A DNA stretch of 24,845 bases, taken from IMG/VR virus record IMGVR_UViG_3300022225_000004, positions 1 to 24,845 of that record; one strand, 5' to 3'. Shown in pieces: positions 2,065 to 18,823 of this stretch. The position numbers and the translations under genes are program-made. The DNA is from a virus. The notes beneath the pieces are model-generated. The model saw nothing but the letters and a program-made list of their open reading frames with translations, ran no database searches and had not been told where the DNA came from. The stretch's first letter is position 1; each line of letters begins with the position of its first letter.

Positions 2065-2553
2065 TTATATATTCTTTGATAATTGTTTTTTTAAGTCCCA
2101 CCACCAAGAAGCAGTTTCTTCTTTTTCTGAAATAGCCATATTATAGGTAGCACGAATATCCTTTACTAATCCTTTGTTATATAATATACTTTTTGCCCCA
2201 TTATGCAATGGCTTTGGCCAGTTGCCAATATCAACCCAGCAGTATCCAGATGATTCGTCGTTTAATATAGGCACAAATTCTTTATATGCAACTACAATAA
2301 ATGTATTATAAAAAAAACTATTATTTTTGGCTTTGTATTGATGCAGAGGATATATTTTTACTACGGCAGGCACATTTCCGATTTCTTCCTGTAATTCTCT
2401 ATATAATGTTTCGATAGGTCGTTCTTCTTTATGGGCTTTACCGCCCCAGAACGCCCAAGTACCAGGATGACTAACTTTTCTTGATCTTAATTGGAGTAAT
2501 ATTCTTCCAGTAGAAACTGAGAGAAAAATACATCCAGATGCTTTAACCTCCAT
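2065..2553 (-). CDS. Nudix hydrolase
   Basis: A 162-residue protein with a complete Nudix box: G38-x5-E44-x7-R52-E53-L54-x-E56-E57-I58-G59. The three glutamates around E53-E57 bind the metal that activates water for attack on a nucleoside diphosphate linked to another group. The preceding WAFWGGKAH stretch and the N-terminal LLQLRSRKVSHPGTW resemble MutT/NUDT1-type members. Substrate cannot be read from sequence; candidates are damaged dNTPs, ADP-ribose or NAD-type molecules, capped RNA ends or alarmones. T4-like phages often carry Nudix enzymes (T4 NudE is one). It lies 12 bases downstream of gene 15 on the same strand, so it probably rides on the gene 14-15 late transcript. Confidence 0.88.
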   Translation of the reverse strand: MEVKASGCIFLSVSTGRILLQLRSRKVSHPGTWAFWGGKAHKEERPIETLYRELQEEIGNVPAVVKIYPLHQYKAKNNSFFYNTFIVVAYKEFVPILNDESSGYCWVDIGNWPKPLHNGAKSILYNKGLVKDIRATYNMAISEKEETASWWWDLKKQLSKNI

Positions 2554-5345: not shown

Positions 5346-6554
5346 TTATGCTAACTTACCTCTTACTGTTTGTTCGCCCTTCCATATTGCAGAAGTTTTA
5401 GAAAGTGAATATGCTGGCGTACTAAATTCAGCTGAATCTACACCTTCTATTTCTTGCTCAGGAGAAAGTCGAATACCTACTGTATACTTTAATCCTGCCC
5501 AAACAACAAAACACGACACAAAAACAAATGCACCAATAATAGATACACCTGTTAATTGGGTAGCAAAAGATACATCATCTTTAAATATTCCTACTGCTAA
5601 AGTACCCCAAACACCTGCAACTAGGTGAACCGATAGTGCTCCAACTGGGTCATCGATTTTGAATTTATCAAACATTGGAACGGCAACTAATACTAATAAT
5701 CCGCCTATCATGCCGATTGCCATTGCTAATTCCATTGTAGGATAATCAGGTCCTGCTGTAATGCTTACAAGTCCTGCTAACGCACCGTTAAGTACCATAG
5801 TTAAATCTACTCGTTTATAGATAAGTTGTGTTGCAATTAATGTTGTTAATGCACCAGCACAGGCGGCAATGTTTGTATTTGCAATAATTTGTGCTACCGC
5901 ATTTACATCTGCTATTGTGCCCATTGCTAACTGACTTCCGCCATTAAATCCAAACCAACCTAACCATAATATAAATGTACCCAATGTTGCTAATGGTAAA
6001 TTTGCTGGAGGTATTAAATTTGGTGAGCCATTTTCATTATAACGACCATGTCTTGCACCTAGTAAAATTGCACCTGCTAATGCACACCATCCACCTACGG
6101 AGTGTACAATAGTTGAGCCAGCGAAATCATTAAAACCCATTTCAGATAGCCATCCGCCGCCCCAGGTCCAATTACCTTGTAAAGGATAAATGATTGCTGA
6201 AAGTACTGCTACCATTCCCATAAAGGGCCAAAACTTAATACGTTCTGCAAGTGTTCCAGATACTATACTTGCCGCGGTTGCTACAAACACAACCTGAAAA
6301 AAGAAATCACTCATACCAGAATGATCTCCATCTGTTATGTTACCATACATAATTTGGTAACCAACTATATAAAACATAATACATGCTAAAGCATATAATG
6401 TTATATTTTTTGTTAAAATTGCTGTAGTATTTTTAGACCTTACTAATCCTGACTCTAGCATGGCAAAGCCTGCCGCCATCCACATAACTAGACAACCAGA
6501 AAAAATTAATAAAAAGGTGTTGAAAATATAAGCAACGTCTGTAAAATTTTCCAT
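5346..6554 (-). CDS. amtB: AmtB/Mep/Rh-family ammonium transporter
   Basis: A 402-residue polytopic membrane protein, the length of a mature bacterial AmtB, with about eleven membrane spans. The conserved elements are all present: D143 in FNDFAGSTIVH, the pore histidines H151 (STIVHSVGG) and H310 (GALSVHLVAGVWGT), and the aromatic gate region GWFGFNGGS. It moves ammonium or ammonia across the inner membrane. The C-terminal tail keeps RLSPEQEIEGVD, the region by which GlnK-type PII proteins block host AmtB. The ATG has a strong AGAGGAG site four bases upstream, and a late-type box lies about 50 bases upstream. The gene looks intact. Amt genes are known from a green-alga virus and from marine viral metagenomes, so it is an auxiliary nitrogen gene rather than a phage structural part. 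Confidence 0.96.
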   Translation of the reverse strand: MENFTDVAYIFNTFLLIFSGCLVMWMAAGFAMLESGLVRSKNTTAILTKNITLYALACIMFYIVGYQIMYGNITDGDHSGMSDFFFQVVFVATAASIVSGTLAERIKFWPFMGMVAVLSAIIYPLQGNWTWGGGWLSEMGFNDFAGSTIVHSVGGWCALAGAILLGARHGRYNENGSPNLIPPANLPLATLGTFILWLGWFGFNGGSQLAMGTIADVNAVAQIIANTNIAACAGALTTLIATQLIYKRVDLTMVLNGALAGLVSITAGPDYPTMELAMAIGMIGGLLVLVAVPMFDKFKIDDPVGALSVHLVAGVWGTLAVGIFKDDVSFATQLTGVSIIGAFVFVSCFVVWAGLKYTVGIRLSPEQEIEGVDSAEFSTPAYSLSKTSAIWKGEQTVRGKLA

Positions 6555-6768: not shown

Positions 6769-6860
6769 TGGCTCTGGGGGCTGGATTCGAACCAACACGC
6801 CCCTCTGCAAAGGGACAATACGTAAACAACGCATCACGTCTACCGTTTCGTCACCCCAGA
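6769..6860 (-). tRNA. Class II tRNA with GTT (Asn) anticodon, identity uncertain
   Basis: On the minus strand the sequence folds as a long-variable-arm tRNA with CCA encoded. The acceptor is TCTGGGG/CCCCAGA, the D-arm is of the tRNA-Leu type (ACG-AAACGGTAGA-CGT), and the anticodon arm is ATGCG-TTGTTTA-CGTAT. A 6-base-pair variable arm (GTCCCT/AGGGGC) and T-arm GTTGG-TTCGAAT-CCAGC follow, then discriminator G. The anticodon reads GTT, which is Asn, but bacterial tRNA-Asn is class I, and position 37 is U rather than a purine. A canonical tRNA-Asn(GTT) is present at 16613-16689. Its 5' end overlaps the end of the zinc-finger gene by ten bases. A tRNA-Cys reading (GCA at the variable arm) fits less well. 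Confidence 0.75.
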
Positions 6861-7078
6861 GTTCGTTCTTTTATAAGATGTTCAGCTTGATGCTCTGCAA
6901 GTTCATCAAGGTCTGTAAATGTTTCATCGCATTCAAAGCAACTAGCAAATCCATATTTCTTATAAAAGTTTTCCTCATCTATCATTTCTCGTGCTTGCTT
7001 TTGTAGTTCTGCTATTACGTCATTTATTCCATGTCCACCTGGGTAGACAGGAAATACCTTATTACTACTTTTTGGCAT
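6851..7078 (-). CDS. C2H2 zinc-finger miniprotein
   Basis: A 75-residue protein with one classical C2H2 finger near its C-terminus: CFEC, twelve residues, then HQAEH, i.e. C-x2-C-x12-H-x3-H. The linker has Phe and Leu at the places of the usual hydrophobic core (ETFTDLDEL). The finger and its flanks are acidic, which argues against simple DNA binding and for protein or RNA contact. The ATG overlaps the last base of the upstream synthetase-like gene, and its last ten bases overlap the class II tRNA. It is therefore probably translated from the same message as the synthetase-like gene and could assist it. The function is unknown. Confidence 0.75.
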   Translation of the reverse strand: MPKSSNKVFPVYPGGHGINDVIAELQKQAREMIDEENFYKKYGFASCFECDETFTDLDELAEHQAEHLIKERTLG

Positions 7079-7953
7079 TACATAAGCCCAGCTTTTTTCA
7101 TTCCAGCAATCAAGCGTGTCATTCCTATTCCTCCTCCAACCCTAGGTTTGAAGTCATGTGTCAAAAATTCAAAAAGTTCGTGTTCCACTCGTTCTTTACC
7201 AAACAAATCAAATAGTAATTGTGCATACCCACCATCTGAAATTGTATGGAATTGATGTTTCATTTCCTGTACATCAGTAGACCGTTCAGCACTACCAATG
7301 GTTTCCATGCCGCCAATAATAACATCGCATTTATTAGCAAGCAAGCCAGTTTTTTTCACATCCATTTCACCAAGTTTCATATTCCAGAAAGGACTTGTTG
7401 ATTCTGGAAAATGTGTCAGGAAAAATACATCTCCATATTCTTGATACATTTCTTCCTCATGGTGGGCATCTAATTCTGCACCAGTATATTTTGCTAATAC
7501 ACTTTGATACATGCCACCCGGAAAATCTAAATCTTTATATGGAGCCTTATTCCAATCACATTTAAATCCGAGATGTTTAAGTAAGTCGTTTTCTAATTTT
7601 AATAGATCATCGAAATTACCTGGCGCCTCAAATTCGAACATTGGAAAAATGAGTTCATGTCTACCTTCAACAGGATTCTGTTCTTGTCTGTAACTAGTGC
7701 TAAGACAATAACAACCTGCTATATCAGGTTTTGTAAGCAACTCGTATTCTAACCACATCTGTCCTGTTTGAGGTAATGGCCATATTTGACCATTATATTC
7801 GTAGGTTGCAACTGTGGTTGGATCTTCACAAGCCGCTAAAATACTAAGTCTATTTTGAGTGTGAACTTCTAAAAAATTTTTGGAGTCAAAAAAGGAACGA
7901 AGAAGTTTGACCGCAGTAGTGAATTCTGCTGGATCAATTAGTTGTGTAGTCAA
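7078..7953 (-). CDS. Class II aminoacyl-tRNA synthetase-like enzyme (AsnRS/AspRS-type catalytic domain)
   Basis: A 291-residue protein made of only a class II synthetase catalytic core of the Asp/Asn type. Motif 2 is seen at residues 88-109 (Y88-R89-x-E91, R98-H99, FPMFEFE) and motif 3 at 273-280 (GGGIGMTR with R280). The phrase GMETIGSAERS lies between them. There is no N-terminal OB-fold anticodon-binding domain, so it differs from true AsnRS (about 430-460 residues). Stand-alone relatives include archaeal asparagine synthetase (AS-AR), which makes Asn from Asp and ammonia with ATP. Inference: asparagine synthesis or amino-acid activation. The start is TTG with GGAG seven bases upstream; no in-frame ATG lies near. 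It is followed by the zinc-finger gene, the class II tRNA and amtB. Confidence 0.85.
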   Translation of the reverse strand: MTTQLIDPAEFTTAVKLLRSFFDSKNFLEVHTQNRLSILAACEDPTTVATYEYNGQIWPLPQTGQMWLEYELLTKPDIAGCYCLSTSYRQEQNPVEGRHELIFPMFEFEAPGNFDDLLKLENDLLKHLGFKCDWNKAPYKDLDFPGGMYQSVLAKYTGAELDAHHEEEMYQEYGDVFFLTHFPESTSPFWNMKLGEMDVKKTGLLANKCDVIIGGMETIGSAERSTDVQEMKHQFHTISDGGYAQLLFDLFGKERVEHELFEFLTHDFKPRVGGGIGMTRLIAGMKKAGLM

Positions 7954-8014: not shown

Positions 8015-8785
8015 TTAGGCAGTTAGTACCTCAACTCCACTTTCAGTAACCAGCAAAGTGTGTTCCCACTGAGCAGAAAGAGAACCATCAACAGTCACTG
8101 CGGTCCATCCGTCTGCTAGAATCCATATTTCCTGGCGCCCCATATTGATCATCGGTTCGATAGTGAACACCATTCCCTGACGAAGGATTTCTCCGTTACC
8201 TGCTGTTCCGTAATGTAAAATTTGTGGTGCTTCATGAAATTTGATACCTACTCCGTGACCACAAAAGTCTCGCACTACTGAATAATCTAAACTTTCAGCA
8301 TGAGACTGAATTGCATGACCAATATCTCCTGTTGTAGCTCCGGGTCGTACTTGTTCAATACCAAGTTCTAGACATTTACGTGTTTCTTTAACTAGGTTTA
8401 ATACAGAATCTGATACTTCTCCTATGATATACATCCGGCTCGCATCGCCAAAATATCCATTAAGATTATTAGTAACATCAACGTTAACGATATCCCCATT
8501 TTTTAGAATATATTCATTTGGGGTTCCGTGACAAATTACCTCATTAACTGAGGTACAAACACTTTTAGGAAAAGGCTCACCGTAAGGCCCTTTGCCGCGG
8601 CCATAGTTTAAAGGTGCAGGATAGGCGCCTTGGGCAAGGGTTTCATTATGAACCCATTCGTTGATTTGATTGGTTGTAATACCTTCAGTAATGCGTTCTT
8701 CAAGCATGTCAAGGATTTTACGTGTAAGCTGACTGCTTTTGCGGATTCCTTCTAGTTGTTCTTCGTTTTTGATGATTATTTGCAT
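8015..8785 (-). CDS. map: Methionine aminopeptidase type I
   Basis: A 256-residue cytosolic enzyme of the type Ia length, removing the start methionine from new proteins with small second residues. All five metal ligands are in place: D103 (VNVDV), D114 (GYFGDAS), H177 (CGHGVG), E210 (FTIEPM) and E241 (QWEHTLL). H86 in ICHG corresponds to the substrate histidine. No N-terminal zinc-finger extension is present. No good Shine-Dalgarno precedes the ATG, and a TATAAT sequence ends on it, so the start may be leaderless or weakly translated. Together with phage deformylases, such genes are taken to help virion and photosystem protein maturation in other marine phages; here the partner is not in the window. 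Confidence 0.96.
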   Translation of the reverse strand: MQIIIKNEEQLEGIRKSSQLTRKILDMLEERITEGITTNQINEWVHNETLAQGAYPAPLNYGRGKGPYGEPFPKSVCTSVNEVICHGTPNEYILKNGDIVNVDVTNNLNGYFGDASRMYIIGEVSDSVLNLVKETRKCLELGIEQVRPGATTGDIGHAIQSHAESLDYSVVRDFCGHGVGIKFHEAPQILHYGTAGNGEILRQGMVFTIEPMINMGRQEIWILADGWTAVTVDGSLSAQWEHTLLVTESGVEVLTA

Positions 8786-9358: not shown

Positions 9359-9570
9359 CTTTTAAATGACCGTTCCACTAACATAACTACCCCAATTGCT
9401 TTTTTGTATTCATCTATATTTTCATATAATGCATCAGCAAGCCCTGCTCGAATTTTCAATTCGCTTAAGGTAAATGACCATTCATCTATATTCGCAACAT
9501 ATTGCCATCGCATTACTGCTTTTACAGTTTTTCCATCGATAATAGTTCGTTGAAAGATAGGATCTTTCAT
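9355..9570 (-). CDS. Small protein of unknown function, possible paralogue of the 84-aa protein
   Basis: A 71-residue soluble protein, starting MKDPIFQRTIIDGKTVKAVM. The arrangement P-x-F-x-R-x3-D-x-K-T, then a Trp, a L-x3-L/R turn and a DEYKKAI helix is repeated in the 84-aa protein on the other side of the dehydrogenase gene (10623-10877). This suggests a duplication, although identity is low. It overlaps the dehydrogenase stop and the next ATG by four bases each, so it is tightly coupled within the operon. The function is unknown. Confidence 0.65.
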   Translation of the reverse strand: MKDPIFQRTIIDGKTVKAVMRWQYVANIDEWSFTLSELKIRAGLADALYENIDEYKKAIGVVMLVERSFKR

Positions 9571-10610
9571 AAAAATCTCTTTTCGGCTAAATCATTACAT
9601 ATTTTTATTGTTGTTTGATCTGTTTTTGCACTTTGATATAATACTTTAAAAACTGTATTAAATATAGAATCTAATCTATTTTTTACTATCGGACTTTCAT
9701 AATTTAAATCTATAAGTGTTTTATTTTGACTTTTTTCGACAATAATTACACCACCGCAATTTGCAAGATAGTCAGGTACATAAAAAATATTTTTCTCTTT
9801 AAGAAGCTCAGTAAGTTCATCTACTTCAAGTTGGTTATTTGCACCTCCAGCAATGCCTGCACATTTTAATTTTGGTATTGTTATTTGATTTAAAATTCCA
9901 CCAGTAGAACAAGGACTAAAAATATCACTTTCTACTTCATATATTTCATTTGGTTTAACAAACGATATATTTGCGAAATTTAACGAACCGTATTGATATT
10001 CTTCAAATACGTTAACATTTGTATCGGTAGCAATAACCTTTGCACCATCCTTAAGGCAAAAATCAATCAATCTTTTACCAACTTTACCTATTCCTTGAAC
10101 TGCAATTGTTTTATCTTTTAATGAATCAGTACCATGTAAAAATTTAATTAATGCTTTAATAGATTGGAACACTCCGTATGCGGTTGCAACCCCGCTATCT
10201 GTTTTACTCTTGTGTCCTAAGATAAAGTTTGTACTTTTTGCTATTTCTTTTAAATCGTGAATTGTAGTACCAATGTCACCAGATGTTATATATTTTCCAT
10301 AAAGATTGTTTACAAGGCCGGCAAATGCTTGCCAAAGTTCTGGACTTTTTTCAGGTAGAGCATTAACGGTTGCTTTGCCTCCGCCAAAATCTAAACCAGC
10401 TAAGGCATTTTTATAAGTCATACCTTTTGCAAGGCGCAATGTATCATTTAATTGTTCGTCATTAGTTTTATACGGATAATAACGACATCCGCCTACGGCT
10501 GGACCTAATTTGGTATTATGTATTGCTATATAAGCATCCAGCCCTGTTTTTTTATCAACTCCATGTACTACTTCTTCATACCCATCTATAGATATTTCTG
10601 TAATTATCAT
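9567..10610 (-). CDS. Leu/Phe/Val/Glu-type amino-acid dehydrogenase
   Basis: A 347-residue oxidoreductase of the Glu/Leu/Phe/Val dehydrogenase superfamily, close in length to leucine dehydrogenase (about 365). It interconverts an amino acid with its 2-keto acid and ammonium using NAD(P). The N-terminal domain has the substrate loop GPAVGGCR (36-43), K67 (MTYKNA), catalytic K79 (GGGKA) and D112 (TSGDIGTT). The Rossmann domain begins near residue 168 with TIAVQGIGKVG and IATDTN, suggesting NAD. The late CSTGG and AGGANNQL motifs are intact. Which amino acid it uses cannot be told. In the context of amtB and the AsnRS-like gene it is plausibly part of nitrogen assimilation or amino-acid breakdown. 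Confidence 0.92.
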   Translation of the reverse strand: MIITEISIDGYEEVVHGVDKKTGLDAYIAIHNTKLGPAVGGCRYYPYKTNDEQLNDTLRLAKGMTYKNALAGLDFGGGKATVNALPEKSPELWQAFAGLVNNLYGKYITSGDIGTTIHDLKEIAKSTNFILGHKSKTDSGVATAYGVFQSIKALIKFLHGTDSLKDKTIAVQGIGKVGKRLIDFCLKDGAKVIATDTNVNVFEEYQYGSLNFANISFVKPNEIYEVESDIFSPCSTGGILNQITIPKLKCAGIAGGANNQLEVDELTELLKEKNIFYVPDYLANCGGVIIVEKSQNKTLIDLNYESPIVKNRLDSIFNTVFKVLYQSAKTDQTTIKICNDLAEKRFL

Positions 10611-13780: not shown

Positions 13781-13867
13781 GCCACCGTGGCGGAATTGGT
13801 AGACGCCTTGGACTTAAAATCCAATGTTCTTCGGAGCGTGCCGGTTCGAGTCCGGCCGGTGGTACCA
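13781..13867 (+). tRNA. tRNA-Leu (TAA)
   Basis: A class II tRNA: acceptor GCCACCG/CGGTGGT, D-loop GAATTGGTAGA, anticodon loop CTTAAAA giving TAA, variable arm TGTTCTTCGGAGCGT, T-arm GCCGG/CCGGC, discriminator A, encoded CCA. It reads UUA, a favoured Leu codon in AT-rich genes. Confidence 0.96.
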
Positions 13868-15439: not shown

Positions 15440-15766
15440 ATGCCAATATATGAATATAAATGTGAAGATTGTGGACATGAATTTGAAGAAATGCTTCATT
15501 TTTCAGAAAGAAATAATCCGTTAAATAATCAGTGTTCAATACGAATATTTGATCGTAATCATGAGCCTCAATGTTTTGATTGTAAAGGGAAAATACATTT
15601 AAAAATGAGTATGAGTTCCTTTCATTTAAAAGGTGGTGGTTGGTACAAAGATGGATATGAATCAAAACTAGAAAAGAAAGAAGAAAAGAAAGAAGAAAAG
15701 AAACCAGAGGCAAAGGATGATAAAAAACCGAAAGCAAAAGACGATACAAAGGCGAGTGTCGTATAA
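15440..15766 (+). CDS. FmdB-family zinc-ribbon protein with charged tail
   Basis: A 108-residue protein opening MPIYEYKCEDCGHEFEEM, the standard FmdB start. C8-x2-C11 and C45-x2-C48 supply four zinc ligands. The MSMSSFHLKGGGWYKDGY segment after the ribbon is the usual FmdB end. A tail of alternating Lys and Glu/Asp repeats (about residues 77-105) follows and is expected to be disordered. Family members are annotated as regulators but their role is uncertain. The gene starts one base after the upstream stop, and its last 15 bases form the 5' acceptor strand and D-arm of the Gly(TCC) tRNA sequence. Confidence 0.82.
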   Translation: MPIYEYKCEDCGHEFEEMLHFSERNNPLNNQCSIRIFDRNHEPQCFDCKGKIHLKMSMSSFHLKGGGWYKDGYESKLEKKEEKKEEKKPEAKDDKKPKAKDDTKASVV

Positions 15767-15825
15767 TGGTATTACCTTAGGCTTCCAACTTAAAGACGCA
15801 GGTTCGAATCCGGCCTGGGGAGCCA
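15752..15825 (+). tRNA. tRNA-Gly (TCC)-like, with mismatched acceptor stem
   Basis: The 5' half is a good Gly(TCC): acceptor strand GCGAGTG (identical to that of tRNA-Gly GCC), GTATAATGGTATTAC D-arm, and loop CTTCCAA with anticodon TCC. The 3' acceptor strand is CTGGGGA with discriminator G, which cannot pair with GCGAGTG and would not suit glycine. The last twelve bases match those of tRNA-Asn (16678-16689) at eleven positions. The T-stem also has one A-G mismatch. It is either a pseudogene or a recombinant tRNA. Confidence 0.6.
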
Positions 15826-16612: not shown

Positions 16613-16689
16613 TCCTCGGTAGCTCAGTTGGTAGTAGCAACAGACTGTTAATCTGTAGGTCGCTGGTTCGAGTCCAGCCCGGGGAGCCA
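16613..16689 (+). tRNA. tRNA-Asn (GTT)
   Basis: Acceptor TCCTCGG/CCGGGGA, class I short variable loop, anticodon loop CTGTTAA giving GTT with purine 37, T-arm GCTGG-TTCGAGT-CCAGC, discriminator G (Asn identity), encoded CCA. This is the canonical Asn tRNA, in contrast to 6769-6860. Confidence 0.95.
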
Positions 16690-18430: not shown

Positions 18431-18823
18431 ATGCCGGAACACAAGCATTTATTAATTAGAGCAGAAGTTAATAAACCTATTAAAGAAGAAAAAATACTTA
18501 AAAAATGGCTTAAAGATTTAGTTAAAAAAATTGATATGAAAATTATCAAAGGGCCATATATAGCATATGTATCTAAGGAAGGTAATAGAGGTATAACAGG
18601 TATTGTAGCAATAGAAACATCACATGTTGCAATTCATATATGGGACGAAGAAAGTCCTGCGTTAGTACAATTTGATGTATATTCTTGTGCTAATTTTTCA
18701 ACACACGAAGTTATAATGCATACAGCATTAATGGAACCAACAAAAGTAGAACATTTATTTATAAATAGAGGTAAGATTTTTGATATCGGTAATGTAAATA
18801 AATGGAGTATAACTAAGCCATAA
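18431..18823 (+). CDS. speD: S-adenosylmethionine decarboxylase-like proenzyme
   Basis: A 130-residue protein of the short prokaryotic AdoMetDC type, which self-cleaves to make a pyruvoyl group and decarboxylates SAM for spermidine synthesis. The core IETSHVAIHIWDEES contains S64 (future pyruvoyl), H65 and H69 at the spacing of the family's S63 and H68; C86 in DVYSCAN matches C83. The residue before the cleaved serine is Thr63, not the usual Glu, with Glu62 one place further back. SpeD is common in marine T4-like phages. GAGAGG precedes the ATG. Its 3' end overlaps the convergent membrane-protein gene by 11 bases. Confidence 0.88.
   Translation: MPEHKHLLIRAEVNKPIKEEKILKKWLKDLVKKIDMKIIKGPYIAYVSKEGNRGITGIVAIETSHVAIHIWDEESPALVQFDVYSCANFSTHEVIMHTALMEPTKVEHLFINRGKIFDIGNVNKWSITKP

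Follow-up and report, generated by a model that had tools for sequence, protein, structure and literature searches.

Gene order and enzyme at the locus

The locus lies in a stretch of viral DNA of 24,845 nucleotides (IMG/VR record IMGVR_UViG_3300022225_000004), the whole of which is called the window here. A stand-alone class II synthetase core resembling AsnRS, a small C2H2-like open reading frame (ORF) and a long-armed tRNA with a GUU anticodon follow one another on the minus strand. Our analysis confirms this trio and its coordinates as proposed in a first-pass annotation, with the zinc-finger match falling below its cut-off, and ARAGORN also finds the second, normal tRNA-Asn which that annotation had placed elsewhere in the window (Table 1).

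Table 1. Position of the features recognised in the window
Feature	Position	Strand	Evidence and remarks
NUDIX hydrolase	2065-2553	-	
Ammonium transporter, full-length	5346-6554	-	PF00909, 322 bits; just downstream of the tRNA
Class II-shaped tRNA, GUU anticodon	6769-6860	-	ARAGORN; RF00005; family model R1, 87.4 bits
Landmarks of this tRNA	anticodon 6827-6825; U37 6824; G73 6772; encoded CCA 6771-6769	-	U1:A72
C2H2-like miniprotein ORF, between enzyme and tRNA	6851-7078	-	75 aa; zf-C2H2 20.7 bits, below cut-off 25.2
AsnRS-like stand-alone class II synthetase core	7078-7953	-	291 aa; TTG start
M24 peptidase, methionine aminopeptidase-like	8015-8785	-	
Glu/Leu dehydrogenase family	9567-10610	-	
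tRNA-Leu(UAA)	13781-13867	+	R1, 65.3 bits
Decayed tRNA-Gly(UCC)-like sequence	15758-15822	+	RF00005, 36.1 bits over a truncated match
Ordinary class I tRNA-Asn (GUU, U33, A37)	16613-16689	+	ARAGORN; RF00005, 63.5 bits; R1, 57.2 bits
S-adenosylmethionine decarboxylase	18431-18823	+	

The window, a 25-kb fragment, contains several metabolic genes and no recognised pyr gene. The acceptor stem of the tRNA-Gly(UCC)-like sequence is apparently broken and ARAGORN rejects it; a tRNA-Gly(UCC) is called by ARAGORN in the close relative L008.

The enzyme matches PF00152 with 69.8 bits (cut-off 25) over residues 13-285. Its AlphaFold2 model (pLDDT 91.9) finds AsnRS and AspRS cores as top PDB matches in a Foldseek search (AsnRS, E 5e-18), and the Pfam match together with the matching structure identifies a class II synthetase fold. 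The anticodon-binding domain, an N-terminal OB-fold, is absent, as the first-pass annotation had it: the core begins at about residue 8 and the Pfam match covers the catalytic domain only. Scores with the AsnRS/AspRS family models are about 10% of the cut-off or less; the AsnRS equivalog TIGR00457 gives 30.7 bits against a cut-off of 342.6, and the AS-A model NF005055 gives 15.9 bits against 389. PHROG 29758, of unknown function, matches the enzyme with an E value of 1e-104. Identity to Prochlorococcus phage proteins is 55-56%, and the relatives in P-SSM2, P-SSM5 and P-SSM7 carry the label 'tRNA ligase' (T4-GC 194).

The active site was compared by aligning the enzyme family to real AsnRS and AspRS sequences, three of each for the pocket pair. 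Arg89 of motif 2 and Arg280 of motif 3 are retained in the family, along with Glu43 of the flexible loop and Arg224, the arginine which reads the Asp/Asn side chain. The enzyme has Leu68-Glu69 where AspRS has Lys-Gln and AsnRS has Ala, Ile or Leu followed by Glu; Leu68, Glu69 and Arg224 are invariant in alignments of 60 and 56 sequences, which corresponds to an Asn-type pocket. Since the Leu-Glu pair is of the AsnRS type, asparagine would be favoured over aspartate as the ligand. The invariant proline of motif 1 is replaced by Gln33, itself invariant in the family alignments, and a Glu of motif 2 is replaced by Ile102, so that the activation step may differ. Longer loops and an invariant Cys42 are specific to the family.

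The tRNA of the window reads TCTGGGG-TG-ACG..CGT-G-ATGCG-TTGTTTA-CGTAT-(21-nt variable region)-GTTGG-TTCGAAT-CCAGC-CCCCAGA-G-CCA. A default Rfam scan of the whole window misses it because the fast filters drop it, and the lack of a hit is therefore a filter artefact; with these filters relaxed RF00005 gives 39.1 bits, above the gathering threshold of 29. Failure of a covariance model had been named at first pass as grounds against the tRNA; this score and the covariation of its stems described below speak for it. U33 is present and position 37 is U, which departs from the U33 and purine 37 of an elongator tRNA-Asn. Among the ordinary tRNAs of the window the tRNA-Leu(UAA) scores highest with R1, which suggests that the enzyme-linked tRNA has a Leu-like body.

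The stop codon of the zinc-finger ORF falls within the tRNA. This ORF clusters with those of 7 other loci, a minority of the related loci, and thus does not belong to the core. In 99 of 129 loci (including L327, a false positive described below) enzyme and tRNA are at most 20 nt apart, which leaves no room for the ORF. The earlier suggestion that the zinc finger helps the enzyme was rejected for want of conservation; it is an occasional passenger.

A GUU tRNA follows the enzyme in viruses

Several hundred stretches in IMG/VR encode relatives of the enzyme. A GUU tRNA on the same strand lies within 450 nt downstream in 128 of 147 distinct marine viral enzymes, the 147 being those for which 330 nt or more is available downstream. 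Where the variable arm is very long ARAGORN fails to call the tRNA, and our stem parser recovers these cases; the script counted 129, and L327, a false positive of the parser, was taken out. The gap between enzyme and tRNA is usually 4-15 nt (quartiles 6, 7 and 14 nt), with five overlaps. This association is far beyond chance and supports the first-pass proposal that a synthetase-like enzyme has an RNA dedicated to it. The same annotation had held that relatives lacking a nearby tRNA would refute the link: all cellular loci are of this type, whereas nearly all viral ones have the tRNA.

A GUU tRNA of the same kind directly follows the enzyme in the Prochlorococcus phages P-SSM7, P-SSM2 and P-SSM5, and that of P-SSM2 is unannotated in the listed region. 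Parts of a 2010 cyanophage comparison list 'tRNA ligase' for P-SSM2 and P-SSM7, leave the tRNA unremarked there and credit P-SSM2 with one tRNA in total (PMC3037559).

The parser missed a divergent linked tRNA in three loci, L245 and L246 (both GUU) and L250 (GUC). These tRNAs have an altered T-loop of the UCCGAAU/UCCGAAC type, and the anticodon of the one in L250 (3868-3966) is that of Asp. A separate viral enzyme lineage, found on the 73-kb viral contig L324, has a long-arm tRNA with GUU and U37 about 1 kb downstream; this association may have arisen independently or be ancient. In L114 the tRNA, about 7-30 nt past the enzyme stop, consists of two acceptor halves only (TCCGGGG-T-CCCCCGGA-GCCA), a collapse due either to the exact deletion of its interior or to an error of assembly. 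The tRNA is absent on two enzyme-bearing viral contigs of 235 kb and 146 kb, which are genuine losses, and from the examined regions of two huge phages with the enzyme. These cases, together with the cellular versions, indicate that the tRNA is not essential to the enzyme. In a tree 43 representatives form a viral clade and the cellular relatives fall outside it; 31-32 of the 43 have the tRNA (L267 is uncertain, as its contig gave the false positive). We regard it as very probable that enzyme and tRNA are functionally paired in viruses.

The 110 distinct linked tRNAs (without L327) keep the Asn identity set: GUU and G73 are present in all of them and U1:A72 in 109. GUU and G73 are the identity elements of E. 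coli AsnRS, and U1:A72 is as in bacterial tRNA-Asn. A pyrimidine occupies position 37 in 90 of the 110 and 20 lack U at position 33, leaving an ordinary U33/R37 loop in only 17, against 73 control tRNAs from the same contigs, all of which have U33 and a purine at 37 (three family members scored as controls by the script were taken out of this set). Fisher tests of linked against control tRNAs give 3e-32 for position 37 and 2e-5 for position 33, values which are approximate since they include L327 and are uncorrected for kinship. CCA is encoded in most of the linked tRNAs, and their variable region ranges from 5 to 39 nt. Among 47 representatives 99.3% of the pairs in the four helices are kept, 17 of 20 pairs change on both sides with covariation in the acceptor, D, anticodon and T stems, and no shuffled or slid structure comes near, whether on paired cells or on covariation score.

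The D-arm and body are nearest to tRNA-Leu, the top non-family matches of the family model being Leu tRNAs. Charging by Leu- or Ser-type enzymes had been suggested at first pass. However, charging with Leu needs A73, and the retention of GUU, U1:A72 and G73 makes such charging unlikely. The loop features agree with the other suggestion made there, that the tRNA has probably left normal translation. Judged from its sequence features, the tRNA has probably been retained because an Asn enzyme recognises it, rather than for decoding. An enzyme without an anticodon domain should not read GUU, and hence the anticodon may serve the host AsnRS or the ribosome.

Cellular relatives and pyrimidine genes

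Relatives of the enzyme with about 49-62% identity are found in Patescibacteria, DPANN archaea, Dependentiae, Midichloriaceae, Chlamydia, Myxococcota, Pasteurella atlantica and others. Some MAG hits, L102, L103, L110, L116 and L180 among them, either have the tRNA or group with the viral clade, and so resemble viral contigs. No cellular locus has a GUU tRNA near the enzyme, and in 14 enzyme-bearing cellular genomes no private tRNA occurs among the best 30 matches, all of which are Leu or Ser tRNAs.

A PyrE-, PyrF- or PyrD-type gene lies within 3 kb of the enzyme in 16 of 72 cellular loci, in several phyla (neighbours were found by clustering and their pyr identity confirmed with family models). 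The order in P. atlantica is enzyme-PyrF-PyrE with a divergent PyrD, and in Rickettsiales relatives it is enzyme-PyrF-PyrE-DHODH-like-PRPP synthetase. Of 140 genomes sampled from the Pasteurella family, only 3 have the enzyme.

A PyrE-like, PyrF, DHODH-like or PRPP-synthetase gene, often directly adjacent, was seen in the available flanks of 22 of 163 viral proteins (17 with a pyrE/F/D-like gene and 5 with PRPP synthetase alone). A genomic association of the enzyme with pyr genes thus exists in both cells and viruses, which goes beyond what the first-pass annotation foresaw. Among 50,697 phage records, 7 match the viral PyrF, 16 the viral DHODH-like protein and none the viral PyrE. Enzyme, GUU tRNA and PyrE occur together on a viral contig of 134.5 kb, with DHODH-like and PyrF genes elsewhere on it, and a DHODH-like gene is present on the contig whose enzyme is 83% identical to that of the window. 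In the opposite direction the link is looser: when viral contigs are retrieved by their DHODH-like or PyrE-like gene, most have no enzyme within 6 kb.

Three Patescibacteria show other neighbours, namely ArgH (argininosuccinate lyase) in L106 and L157 and an arginine dihydrolase in L140, hinting at an arginine-derived donor by the argininosuccinate route. A cytosine-deaminase-like amidohydrolase adjoins the enzyme in L106. In L140 a dimeric PyrC lies beside the enzyme, so the product could be carbamoyl-aspartate.

The early steps of the pathway are mostly missing from 33 enzyme-bearing genomes, many of them draft MAGs: at curated cut-offs CarB is present in 2, PyrB in 3, PyrC of the TIGR00857 family (as distinct from the dimeric family TIGR00856) in 2, PyrD in 16 and PyrF in 25. 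PyrB, CarB, PyrD and PyrF pass in all 14 control genomes, and all of these have a TIGR00857 match. Loss of PyrB is common in such lineages: it is present in 84 of 380 sampled Patescibacteria against 1 of 7 enzyme-bearers, and exclusion within this phylum is not significant. The enzyme was also considered as a substitute for AsnRS, and no clear pattern emerged; AsnRS is over its cut-off in 9 of the 33 genomes, and about six others have a weaker match over the full length.

Interpretation and comparison with known systems

Our analysis points to a two-gene viral module, consisting of an Asn-activating core and a private non-decoding tRNA, which belongs to an enzyme family of pyrimidine synthesis; we put the chances of this complete reading at about even. 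A role of the family in pyrimidine synthesis is, taken by itself, fairly probable. De novo synthesis is generally held to start from carbamoyl phosphate and aspartate, and the enzyme would supply a precursor upstream of PyrD, PyrE and PyrF in place of CarAB and PyrB, perhaps also of PyrC.

For substrate, product and the part played by the tRNA we infer a route which is rather doubtful in its specific chemistry. Asparagine and ATP would give Asn-AMP. The alpha-carboxyl group, activated as the adenylate or as an ester on the private tRNA, would react with CO2 on the alpha-amino group, yielding an N-carboxyanhydride; aminoacyl adenylates and esters are able to form such anhydrides with CO2. Attack of the side-chain amide nitrogen on the carbamate carbonyl would then close the ring to L-dihydroorotate and free the alpha-carboxyl. 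An AsnRS-derived enzyme might in this manner make dihydroorotate in one step from asparagine, CO2 and ATP, bypassing carbamoyl phosphate, though we hold this unlikely. The viral private Asn-tRNA would be the ester carrier or reservoir, sparing the Asn-tRNA of the host. Routes from urea, from arginine-derived donors or through carbamoyl-aspartate would be alternatives.

It is also conceivable, though rather improbable, that the pair is a private donor of aminoacyl-tRNA without a tie to pyrimidines, where the enzyme or the host AsnRS loads asparagine and the ester passes to an acceptor such as a lipid, a peptide or a small molecule. tRNA-Gly, which donates its amino acid in staphylococcal walls, is the model for this. 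Such a donor agrees with the near-universal pairing in viruses and with the non-decoding anticodon loop. However, no acceptor-using enzyme was recognised beside the pair, and the recurrent neighbours of known pathway common to viruses and cells are the pyrimidine genes. The same clusters are unexplained if the enzyme is an asparagine synthetase of the AsnA or archaeal AS-AR kind (aspartate, ATP and NH3 giving asparagine), whose product the tRNA-Asn uses. The size of the enzyme may be compared with that of AS-AR, and its stand-alone core without an anticodon domain is like that of the AspRS-like asparagine synthetases (PMC9437257). But the Leu68-Glu69 pair is AsnRS-like and not AspRS-like, and the AS-A score is a small fraction of its cut-off, and we consider a synthetase of this kind quite improbable.

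Ordinary translation support, in which an additional tRNA-Asn and a minimal AsnRS serve phage genes rich in AAU/AAC, would account for the retention of GUU, G73 and U1:A72, the mostly encoded CCA and the ordinary loop of 17 of the 110 tRNAs. It is difficult to reconcile with the pyrimidine at 37 in 90 and the lost U33 in 20 of them, neither change being seen in any of the 73 neighbouring tRNAs, with the normal tRNA-Asn already in the window, and with cellular enzymes which stand among pyr genes without a tRNA; we therefore think it distinctly improbable. A tRNA that serves only to process or stabilise the 3' end of the enzyme mRNA fits the many loci where it abuts or overlaps the enzyme gene, yet keeping GUU, G73 and U1:A72 would be needless for this and ordinary tRNAs would do equally well, which renders this explanation highly improbable.

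In literature drawn mostly from outside subscription journals we found no report of the enzyme-tRNA pair or of a function for the enzyme. The parts are of known kinds and their combination is new, that is, a private non-decoding tRNA with a synthetase-like enzyme and the association with pyr genes; this does not extend to the proposed chemistry. If the module of activating core and private tRNA in pyrimidine synthesis is true, a widespread unnamed enzyme located in pyr clusters would fill a metabolic gap in Patescibacteria, DPANN and symbionts without those steps. Its viral form would then clearly exemplify, in nature, a virus that uses a private tRNA for metabolism, and phage tRNAs would have a role beyond supplying codons. 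The system is testable, as Prochlorococcus hosts are listed for the isolates P-SSM2 and P-SSM7.

The closest known enzymes are AsnRS and AspRS (class IIb), with which the family shares the catalytic fold, Arg89, Arg280, Arg224 and the AsnRS-type Leu-Glu pair; it differs in the missing anticodon-binding domain, Gln33, Ile102, the invariant Cys42 and the longer loops. Asparagine synthetase A and archaeal AS-AR are likewise stand-alone synthetase cores in metabolism, whereas here the pocket is AsnRS-like, a partner tRNA is present in viruses, the neighbours are pyrimidine genes and the AS-A model gives only 15.9 bits. GluQ-RS, EpmA/PoxA and HisZ are further synthetase cores without an anticodon domain that have been put to other uses. 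The repurposed core is common to them and the present enzyme, which scores about 20 bits with EpmA models, but their substrates and partners are others, and none of them is known to have a private tRNA gene. Dedicated enzyme-tRNA gene pairs that travel together, such as PylRS and tRNA-Pyl, decode a codon. The pair described here resembles them as a dedicated synthetase-tRNA gene pair; unlike them, its tRNA has lost decoding features of the loop and its anticodon duplicates that of a normal tRNA. Finally, a truncated pathway of the Haemophilus type retains PyrD, PyrE and PyrF without CarAB, PyrB and PyrC, the same set as here, where in contrast an extra enzyme is present in the pyr cluster.
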